From positions 310,001 through 374,000 of the forward strand of contig NZ_JACSPU010000003.1 of NCBI RefSeq assembly GCF_014836985.1: 64,000 nucleotides of DNA. The letters are read 5' to 3'. Below the pieces are notes generated by a model. That model was not told where the DNA came from. It ran no database searches and worked only from the letters and a program-made list of their open reading frames with translations. The stretch comes from Planococcus wigleyi. GTDB taxonomy: Bacteria > Bacillota > Bacilli > Bacillales_A > Planococcaceae. Position numbers and translations under genes: made by a program. This document shows positions 55,864-58,637 of this stretch, in pieces (within the stretch, counting starts at the first letter, position 1; every line of letters begins with the position of its first letter).

Positions 55864-55892
55864 TTGACGGAAACTGCGGGCGATTGTATGAT
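55864..55892 (+). promoter_or_regulatory. Strong sigma-A promoter of the ABC-F leader
   Basis: TTGACG at 55864-55869 and TATGAT at 55887-55892 with exactly 17 bases between them, each one base from consensus. Transcription would start near 55899, leaving a leader of about 260 bases before the ABC-F start codon. Confidence 0.8.
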
Positions 55893-55921
55893 GTAAGAGA
55901 TAAAACAAGGAGGTGGGTAAG

Positions 55922-56059
55922 ATGAATCAAACTGGTAAGCGCATGACGGAGTGTCAGGAATATCTATACATTCTTCATGGCGTTACTTTCACTGGGGTAG
56001 CTGGACGGGAGAAGTCTGTCCTTTTTCAGCTAACTGAATGGAGTGGAATTTACCAGTAA
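55922..56059 (+). CDS. Leader ORF of 45 codons (probable attenuator peptide)
   Basis: ATG 55922 follows the very strong site AAGGAGGTGGG. The peptide reads MNQTGKRMTECQEYLYILHG and ends EWSGIYQ; it shows no domain. It sits between a strong promoter and a terminator hairpin (56087-56121) that lies ahead of the ABC-F gene. Ribosome-protection ABC-F genes such as vmlR are known to use leader ORFs whose stalled translation prevents termination. The peptide itself may not matter. An independent small gene with its own terminator is the alternative. Confidence 0.65.
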   Translation: MNQTGKRMTECQEYLYILHGVTFTGVAGREKSVLFQLTEWSGIYQ

Positions 56060-56086
56060 GAGACATCTGCCTGCAAACGGATTTTA

Positions 56087-56121
56087 AGCAAAGGCATGCC
56101 TCTTGGCGTGCCTTTTTTGCT
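56087..56121 (+). terminator. Terminator in the leader, upstream of the ABC-F gene
   Basis: AGCAAAGGCATGCC pairs with GGCGTGCCTTTTTTGCT around TCTT. The self-complementary hexamer GCATGC in the 5' arm recurs at about 56123-56130, offering an alternative pairing. It lies 36 bases before the ABC-F start codon, where a regulated terminator is expected. Confidence 0.8.
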
Positions 56122-56156
56122 GTGCATGCGTCTCTTCATCAGAAAGGAAGAGAACG

Positions 56157-57788
56157 ATGATTATTAGCCAATTTCAACAAATACTGTGCCACTTTGCGAC
56201 ACAGAAATTATTCAACCATATAAAAGGAGAAGTGATGGAAGGCCAACGGATTGGCCTTGTCGGCAGAAACGGGGAAGGTAAATCAACATTATTGAATATA
56301 TTGGCGGGGACTTTGCAGCCGACAGAAGGAAGTGTCACGTGGAAAAAAGGCAGCCGGATTGGGTTGCTGGAGCAATCACCCGACGAACCGGATGAATTGA
56401 CAGTGGAGCAGCTGATGCTGGCTGTTTCCTCAGAGCTGACCGCGATGCAAGAGCACTTGGCGAAAATGGAGAAGTTGATGGAGGATGCTTCTCCGGAAGA
56501 AATGGACCGTTTATTGGCGCGCTATGGCACGTTGCAGGATGAATTTATTCAGCGCGGCGGGTATGAGCTGGACATGAAAATCGATCAAGTCTTGAATGGA
56601 TTGAAGATCAAACAGCTGAAATATGAACGCTGGGGCCATTTAAGCGGCGGTGAAAAAACCAAAATCGGCTTAGCGAAACTTTTGCTGCAACAACCAGACC
56701 TCTTGCTTTTGGATGAGCCGACGAATCATTTAGATTTGGATGCCATTGAATGGTTGGGTGCATTCATCAGCCATTATAAAGGCACGATTGTCCTCGTATC
56801 CCATGACCGTTATTTTCTGGATGAAACGGTGACGCATATATGGGAATTGGATCAAGGCGACTTGATTCAATACAGTGGGAATTATTCAAGCTATATCAAA
56901 GAGCGGGAAGCCCGGCTGTTAGTTGAGTTTCAGCAGTATCAGGATCAGCAAAAGAAAATTCAAAAGATGAAGGAAACCATCAAGCGTTTGAAAGAATGGG
57001 CGAACCGGGCCAATCCGCCGAACGCTGGCATGCACAGACAGGCTAAAAGCATGGAGAAAGCTTTAGCGCGCATTGAAATCCTATATCGGCCTGTACTGGA
57101 GAAAAAACAGATGGCGCTGGACTTCCGTATGGACAAACGAAGCGGAAAAGATGTTGTCTTGTTGGAGGAAGTTTGGAAGGGATTTGGGGAACGGATTTTA
57201 TTTCATGAAATTTCCATGCATGTGCGTTATGGAGAACGTGCGGCAATTGTTGGGGCTAATGGCAGTGGGAAAACGACCTTGCTTAACATGATTATGGGGA
57301 AAGAACCAGTCGATGCCGGGGAGGTCAAGCTGGGCAGCGGTTTGTCTATTGGCTATCTGTCACAGCATACGTTGGAAATGGACAATAACAGAACCATTAT
57401 CGAAGAATTTCGCGATGCTGTTGCAGTTTCCGAATATGAAGCGCGTCCCCTACTGGCTAAGTTCCTGTTTTTCGGCAATATGGTGTTCCAACCGGTTCGG
57501 CAGCTCAGCGGCGGCGAACGGATGCGGCTACGTTTGGCCCAGTTGATGCATCAGCACCACAATCTGCTGATTTTAGATGAACCTACGAATCATTTGGATC
57601 TGGAAGCTAAAGAAGTGATGGAAGAAGCCTTAAGTGAATTTCCTGGGACACTCATTGCGGTATCTCATGACCGTTACTTTTTGGATAAAATGTTTCCAGT
57701 GACTTATTGGCTGAGAAATAACGCACTTGAGCGCTTTGATGGCAACTATTCAGCTGCCCGTGAAAAAGTCATGGTGCCGACAAAATAA
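56157..57788 (+). CDS. ABC-F ribosomal protection protein
   Basis: 543 residues from ATG 56157, with GAAAGGAAGAG upstream; the frame is open 18 codons earlier into the terminator. Two ABC domains have no membrane segment: Walker A GRNGEGKST and GANGSGKTT, signatures LSGGEKTKIGLAKLL and LSGGERMRLRLAQLM, each followed by LLDEPTNHLDL / LILDEPTNHLDLEAKE. The long inter-domain linker at about 235-320 is rich in Gln/Lys/Glu and would reach the ribosomal P-site/peptidyl-transferase centre. Length (543) resembles VmlR or SalA, which protect ribosomes from lincosamides, streptogramins or pleuromutilins. Confidence 0.92.
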   Translation: MIISQFQQILCHFATQKLFNHIKGEVMEGQRIGLVGRNGEGKSTLLNILAGTLQPTEGSVTWKKGSRIGLLEQSPDEPDELTVEQLMLAVSSELTAMQEHLAKMEKLMEDASPEEMDRLLARYGTLQDEFIQRGGYELDMKIDQVLNGLKIKQLKYERWGHLSGGEKTKIGLAKLLLQQPDLLLLDEPTNHLDLDAIEWLGAFISHYKGTIVLVSHDRYFLDETVTHIWELDQGDLIQYSGNYSSYIKEREARLLVEFQQYQDQQKKIQKMKETIKRLKEWANRANPPNAGMHRQAKSMEKALARIEILYRPVLEKKQMALDFRMDKRSGKDVVLLEEVWKGFGERILFHEISMHVRYGERAAIVGANGSGKTTLLNMIMGKEPVDAGEVKLGSGLSIGYLSQHTLEMDNNRTIIEEFRDAVAVSEYEARPLLAKFLFFGNMVFQPVRQLSGGERMRLRLAQLMHQHHNLLILDEPTNHLDLEAKEVMEEALSEFPGTLIAVSHDRYFLDKMFPVTYWLRNNALERFDGNYSAAREKVMVPTK

Positions 57789-57875: not shown

Positions 57876-58637
57876 ATGCCAGCCATAGGAAAGATTCCGG
57901 AAAATATATTTTTGCTGAGTGCCTTGGACGTCATTGGGGAAACGATAATGATTGCGGACAGTTCCTATACCATCAGGTGGATGAATACTGAAGCCTGCCG
58001 GTTGATGAGTGAAGTTGCTCCTTAATATGGCATGTCAGACTGTGAAGAAATGATCGGCATGAGTATGGATTCTTTCCATACACATCCACAGCATCAGAAA
58101 CAGGTGATGCAGGAACTGACATGCACCCACAGAACACGCATAACCATTCGAAATCAGGTGATGGCCGATATTGTCATCACACCGATCATGAATTCCGGAA
58201 ACCAGCCGGAAGGATATGTAGTCATGCTGATGGATGTTACCATGCAGGCTGAAGAACAGAAGCGCAGTGCACAATTGATCAAGGAACTGTCGATTCCCAT
58301 CTTGAATATTTGGGATAGCACGATTGCCTTGCCGTTGATCGGAGAATTCGACAGAGCCCGGACGGATCAATTGGTTGCGACGGTTTTAACGGAATGTACC
58401 GACAAAAAAATTGACTATGTCTTGATTGATTTAAGTGGCATCAAGGAATTTGAACACCAGATTCGGTATCAGATCCTAATGATGACGGAGACCTTGAACC
58501 TCATTGGAACTAAGTGCATTCTTGTAGGCATCAGCCCGAAGTTGGCCATGTCGATTGTCGAATTGGACCGCAAGACGCCGATATTCAGTTCCGCCCATGA
58601 AGGTTTGAAACATATCATTTATTTGCAGACAAAATAA
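57876..58637 (+). pseudogene. PAS-STAS protein broken by an in-frame TAA
   Basis: From ATG 57876 (with AAGGTGG upstream) the frame reads a PAS-like start for 49 codons (DVIGETIMIADSSYTIRWMN), then a TAA at 58023-58025. It continues in the same frame to 58637 with the rest of PAS (EEMIGMSMDSFHTHPQHQ) and a STAS domain (IPILNIWDSTIALPLIGEFD, DYVLIDLSGIKEFE with the phosphorylatable Ser). The downstream part alone would start at ATG 58032 with no ribosome binding site. The intact protein would have been an RsbR-like stressosome or signalling protein. Sequencing error or readthrough are alternatives. Confidence 0.75.

Follow-up and report, generated by a model that had tools for sequence, protein, structure and literature searches.

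In the window (the whole 64,000-nt stretch of Planococcus wigleyi DNA that was analyzed), a gene predicted to encode an ABC-F protein lies behind a leader that, on balance, we take to sense ribosomes and to control the gene at both transcription and translation, with a short element in the leader acting as a programmed RNA polymerase (RNAP) pause signal shared across leaders of Bacilli. The leader ORF, the element, an intrinsic terminator, and two alternative pairings (A:B and B:C) were identified, together with their conservation, by comparing the sequence with those of relatives.

Organization and conservation of the ABC-F leader

The original prediction had described a promoter, a 45-codon ORF with a strong ribosome binding site, a terminator, and an ABC-F gene; all are present, and the leader parts are conserved in orthologues. 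On the + strand, a sigma-A type promoter (TTGACG-17-TATGAT, 55864..55892) precedes the Shine-Dalgarno (SD) sequence of the leader ORF (AAGGAGGTG, 55907..55915), which lies 6 nt 5′ of the ATG. The leader ORF (55922..56059) encodes 45 aa (MNQTGKRMTECQEYLYILHGVTFTGVAGREKSVLFQLTEWSGIYQ) and is followed by a conserved block (ATCTGCCTGCAAACGGAT, 56065..56082) with a possible 5-bp hairpin and by an intrinsic terminator hairpin with a T tract (56090..56118); the stem (56090-56115) together with the T tract has a folding energy of −18.3 kcal/mol. The ABC-F gene (56157..57788, +) encodes a 543-aa protein that matches the ribosomal protection-like ABC-F model NF000355.4 with 472 bits (cut-off 380), and its ATG is 41 nt after the stem, not the 36 bases given originally. 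Downstream of this gene, a STAS-domain gene (57876-58637) appears to be split by a stop codon at ~58023 into ORFs at 57876-58025 and 58032-58637.

Leader conservation in related genomes had been proposed as a check, and a DNA search of relatives showed that, of 35 other genomes in the genus, 22 have the orthologous leader and gene; the leader ORF, the terminator, and a switch that sequesters the SD of the ABC-F gene are kept across these 22 genomes and also in related genera. When 23 orthologous leaders are aligned, the conserved parts are the −35 box (TTGAC is invariant), the leader SD, codons 1-24, the element, the block ACCAGTAAGAGACATCTGCC, the terminator, and GTCTCTT, and the −10 box is well kept. 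The terminator retains 98.4% of its pairs, with compensatory changes. The promoter scan alone was not above chance (6 sites found vs 5.9 expected). A second promoter between 56060 and 56157 had been named as a finding that would count against the prediction; the scan of the + strand in this interval found no promoter-like site.

Within leader codons 1-24, codon positions 1, 2, and 3 are variable among orthologues at 5, 4, and 14 columns, respectively, and nine codons vary only synonymously, which together suggest that the leader ORF is translated. The second half of the ORF is variable and contains frame changes in three orthologues (L013, L019, and L022). Based on these patterns, selection appears to act on the protein in the first half of the leader ORF and on the nucleotide sequence in the second. 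A candidate hairpin in the ORF, TGACAGAATGTCA, was rejected, as it is broken in L015, L020, and L023, and conservation at this site is therefore attributed to coding. Near the start of the leader ORF, ACTGGT (55931-55936) is complementary to ACCAGT near the stop (56051-56056); both are conserved, and a long-range stem is possible. The block at 56065-56082 is near-invariant even in another family (L094 and L174), despite a different terminator 3′ of it. We found no Rfam family at gathering score within the window, and across 28 related loci the sole leader family, introns aside, was the FMN riboswitch in ribD loci.

A shared element as a candidate pause signal

The first clue to the element came from a genome without this locus, where a 26-nt stretch matched; it belongs to the leader of another ABC-F gene and is read in a different frame. 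The element is ~24 nt long (consensus ACGGGANNRGTCTGTCCWTTTTTA) and occurs here within the leader ORF as ACGGGAGAAGTCTGTCCTTTTTCAG (56005..56029, +). We collected 137 non-duplicate loci with the element, 23 of which are this leader and its orthologues. Based on weighted frequencies, G4, G5, G10, T11, T13, G14, and two T's are at ~100%, although the search pattern itself accounts for part of this conservation; under the same search, positions 12, 15, and 18 vary. The flanks carry almost no shared information.

Among leaders whose ORF covers the element, it is read in frames 0, 1, and 2; in others it lies after the stop codon, and in RLR-type leaders such as MTHSMRLRFPTLNQ the ORF ends ~40 nt 5′ of it. 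Two orthologues are frame-shifted through the element yet kept it. A coding motif was rejected on these grounds, and because the element is read in all three frames or after a stop, we consider it to act as nucleic acid; it is almost certainly a functional, shared nucleic-acid signal. In all classes with an assigned leader start, 63 to 99 nt separate the leader AUG from the element. Pairing of the element with an upstream GACAGA was also rejected, as this is absent in a second leader type.

Folding identified a weak hairpin in the element (3-6 bp, −3 to −6 kcal/mol) that ends just 5′ of the T-tract. Most copies have TTTTTT; ATTTTT, AATTTT, ATTTAC, and TTTTTC also occur, the last of these in the window. 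Studies of pausing in E. coli define a consensus elemental pause by its −10, −1, and +1 positions, and G4, T13, and G14 of the element, all near invariant, fall at these three positions. The element probably acts as an RNAP pause signal, given this register and its likeness to two kinds of known site.

The first is the E. coli ops sequence GGCGGTAGCGTG, which aligns with a 12-mer of the element in the register GG(N)8TG, and the two have AG at matching inner positions; pausing at ops is induced by its TG at positions 11 and 12 (PMC5995543). Whereas ops recruits RfaH to long operons (PMC5995543), the gene contexts of the element are unrelated to this. A search of this genome with an RfaH model matched only NusG, below the cut-off; lacking an RfaH above the cut-off in this genome, we did not file the element as ops.

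The second kind is the NusG-dependent pause of Bacillus subtilis, at which positions −11 to −6 of the non-template strand read TTNTTT and an RNA hairpin ends 11-12 nt from the 3′ end of the transcript, with the T motif read by an N-T residue pair of NusG (PMC12288461). The NusG of this genome contains VRNTPGVTGF, including the N-T pair. NusG-dependent pauses with a regulatory effect are proven for the ribD, tlrB, and vmlR leaders of B. subtilis (PMC12288461, PMC6851288, PMC9226507). The element resembles these pauses in having a small predicted hairpin followed by a T-rich motif and in occurring in the context of a ribD riboswitch; however, TTNTTT is all that the known sites have in common (PMC12288461), whereas copies of the element share a near-invariant loop sequence GTNTG and GGGA and have a looser T-tract. 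Because the T-tract is degenerate in several genera, the element is not a plain TTNTTT site.

With its short hairpin followed by T's, the element could instead be a weak intrinsic terminator that comes first, or a structural RNA component of each attenuator, and not a pause signal; positions 2 and 18 do associate in a pair-like manner (25 A-T, 0 A-A; Fisher p 1e-4). We consider this unlikely, as the hairpin energy is only −3 to −6 kcal/mol compared with −18 kcal/mol for the real terminator, the loop GTNTG is conserved as strongly as the stem, and the element lies inside ORFs and 5′ of a separate terminator at nearly every locus.

Codons 19-23 of the leader ORF (HGVTF, 55976..55990, +) form a candidate arrest motif that ends 14 nt before the element; its equivalents in other ABC-F leaders are RAIFH, CAITH, and RVITF, and AGIVH is another form. 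In 64 of 68 non-identical ABC-F leaders, 12-14 nt separate the end of the motif from the element (mean 13.25, SD 0.5), and in the same leaders the AUG-to-element distance ranges from 67 to 91 (SD 4.8). Shuffled peptides show the motif at such spacing in 0.9% of cases, a figure that understates the chance rate because the motif pattern was drawn from the same data and many leaders are related. This spacing, fixed across reading frames, suggests that ribosome position and the element are linked; from the sequences, we would give an even chance that drugs stall the ribosome at this motif.

The same spacing would place the element near the leading edge of a ribosome stalled at the motif. It could thus act on the ribosome or mRNA, as a stalling structure or sequence at the mRNA entry or as a site of RNase processing or stability. 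This is quite improbable given the RLR-type ORFs that end well short of the element and the FMN riboswitch loci that carry it with no evident leader ORF.

Alternative pairing at the ABC-F Shine-Dalgarno sequence

Three segments of the + strand could form the switch. Segment A (AAGAGAC, 56058..56064) overlaps the leader stop codon and pairs with B; segment B (GTCTCTTC, core GTCTCTT, 56130..56137) lies 3′ of the terminator and pairs with A or C; and segment C (GGAAGAGA, 56146..56153) is the SD of the ABC-F gene, which B sequesters. A:B is paired in 26 of 26 sequences and B:C in 95.6% of cells. In L011, L013, and L021, the stop changes from TAA to TGA, TT in B to TC, and AA in C to GA, and both helices are retained; as these three form one clade, this three-way covariation amounts to about one evolutionary event. 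The locus L094, from another family, retains all three segments, and the terminator that they flank is a different one. Unrelated ABC-F leaders have A:B pairs of their own at the same places (GCGCAGCTGA:TCAGCTGCG in L043 and CACAGCTG:CAGCTGTG in L058). Across 56 ABC-F leaders, the real A:B complementarity exceeded that of swapped pairs in all 2000 permutations. In free folding, A:B forms if the fragment starts at A, and B:C forms if A is absent or used upstream; A:B spans the terminator without disrupting it. Folding of fragments identified no antiterminator incompatible with the terminator, and the candidate TGCCT:AGGCA was rejected, as it is lost in L094.

The leader is very probably a real attenuator, and antibiotic-responsive attenuation, as originally proposed, is the best reading of the sequence before the ABC-F gene. 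That proposal is supported by the conserved ORF, terminator, and SD switch and by a layout like those of vmlR, cplR, and tlrB, but the segments involved differ. The GCATGC repeat suggested as an alternative stem does recur 3′ of the terminator arm, at 56124-56129; however, it is lost in relatives and is therefore not a functional alternative stem. The conserved switch is A:B versus B:C, and the shared element in the ORF had been missed. Constitutive expression of the ABC-F gene, with the leader ORF as just a small protein gene, is highly improbable given the conserved terminator, the lack of a second promoter, the conserved SD-sequestering switch, and the variable, frame-shifting second half of the ORF.

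In the mechanism that we propose, pausing, the stall site, the identity of the drug, and induction are inferred. RNAP would pause at the element, giving time for a ribosome to load ~83 nt upstream, and the arriving ribosome would release it. Without drug, a ribosome at the stop codon would cover A, the terminator would form, and the SD of any read-through transcript would be held in B:C. With drug, the ribosome would stall upstream, probably near codons 19-23, leaving A free to capture B; the SD of the ABC-F gene would then be freed, and termination would be lowered by a putative antiterminating fold.

The published layouts of vmlR, cplR, and tlrB are matched by this leader (PMC9226507, PMC10201436, PMC6851288). 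As in vmlR of B. subtilis and cplR of Clostridioides difficile, a translated uORF, an intrinsic terminator, and a structure that sequesters the SD precede the ABC-F gene, and a NusG-dependent pause is also present in vmlR (PMC9226507, PMC10201436). Whereas the uORFs of vmlR and cplR have 3 codons (MIN and MR[I/M]), the ORF here has 45 codons with a conserved 24-residue start. The shared element is absent from the accounts of these leaders in the portions of the two papers that were consulted (PMC9226507, PMC10201436). As in B. subtilis tlrB, there is a leader peptide, a terminator, and an SD-sequestering hairpin, and an RNAP pause is required for tlrB induction (PMC6851288). In tlrB, the uORF has 9 codons with RYR, and the apex of the terminator hairpin serves as the pause hairpin (PMC6851288); in contrast, the element here is separate from the terminator, inside the ORF, and widely shared. 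In Bacillales, the uORFC-6-1 motif is a structured uORF motif reported before hflX only (PMC8632094), and the leader class that carries the element in L105 resembles it in having an RLR uORF with conserved RNA. In a search of open-access papers, we found no prior description of the element.

Distribution of the element across Bacilli

Within the family, a relaxed search detected the element in 169 of 261 genomes, spanning 14 of 19 genera. Within the class Bacilli, it occurs in 134 of 399 genomes and 49 of 145 sampled genera, compared with 2 for a reversed-pattern control; these searches reject restriction to this genus or to ABC-F leaders. Outside Bacilli, only ~5 of 335 other Bacillota genomes have it, so it is essentially a Bacilli feature.

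At ~130 of the 137 loci, the element precedes resistance-type genes or ribD. The downstream genes are ABC-F (~90), Cfr (12), MFS efflux (11), Erm (5), RlmA (3), RibD (3), and, for the remainder, Mph, RidA, HflX, APH-like, and GNAT; gene families were confirmed for representatives. An exact scan of the GTDB contig collection identified at least 119 loci, ~106 of them before such genes among the matches listed. Those matches include at least 60 ABC-F, 15 RlmA, 18 MFS, 8 Erm, 3 Mph, 1 APH-like, and 1 chloramphenicol/streptogramin acetyltransferase genes, along with at least 10 truncated or leader-like and at least 3 chance-like cases. Several RlmA-II (tlrB-type) genes of other species are preceded by the element, and it is also carried by a Planococcus contig (L252). 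In the ribD loci L099, L101, and L102, from two Bacilli families, the element (~1501) lies ~20 nt 3′ of the FMN riboswitch aptamer (RF00050) and before the terminator, with no leader ORF evident.

Plasmid leaders with the element precede cfr of Staphylococcus arlettae, cfr(B) of Enterococcus faecium, mef(F) of Macrococcoides canis, and mph of Planococcus maritimus, whose plasmid is near-identical to a locus of the same genus. The cfr and cfr(B) leaders (L304 1513-1692; L305 1295) hold exact or near-exact copies, and the S. arlettae plasmid has a 59-aa leader ORF annotated as a hypothetical protein. DNA similar to cfr-type leaders occurs in 93 plasmid records, mostly from Staphylococcus and Enterococcus. 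Since several ABC-F leaders are alike and the cfr, mph, and mef leaders are plasmid-borne, the element might have been inherited from one ancestral leader and spread by duplication and horizontal transfer with no common function; this is very doubtful, as the flanks share almost nothing, reading frames differ between leaders, two orthologues kept the element through a frame shift, and it is also found behind an FMN riboswitch.

Returning to the element as a pause signal, we suggest, tentatively, that one dedicated element in the ops register might be a common module of inducible resistance to ribosome-targeting antibiotics across Bacilli, and that in ABC-F leaders the arrested ribosome might sit directly behind the paused polymerase, the two sensing the drug as a coupled unit. 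If this is correct, one short control module is common to many of the inducible resistance genes in Bacilli (ABC-F, Erm, Cfr, RlmA-II, Mef, Mph, and HflX), including the plasmid-borne clinical gene cfr of Staphylococcus and Enterococcus. Pausing, shown singly for tlrB, vmlR, and ribD, would become a recognizable, conserved signal, which would offer a simple sequence-based test for drug-responsive control of a gene, a lead to unrecognized resistance genes, and a defined substrate on which to examine the coupling between polymerase pausing and ribosome stalling.

In L033, L065, and L127, a short ORF like MKKRSIRFLSMGIGFSTAVFF and then the element precede a RidA-family or GNAT acetyltransferase gene, with no separate terminator seen; these downstream genes are possible unrecognized resistance genes. 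In L103 (2021-2577), a group II intron lies directly 3′ of an element-bearing MYFIRLRFPALNQ-type leader and has apparently displaced the gene.
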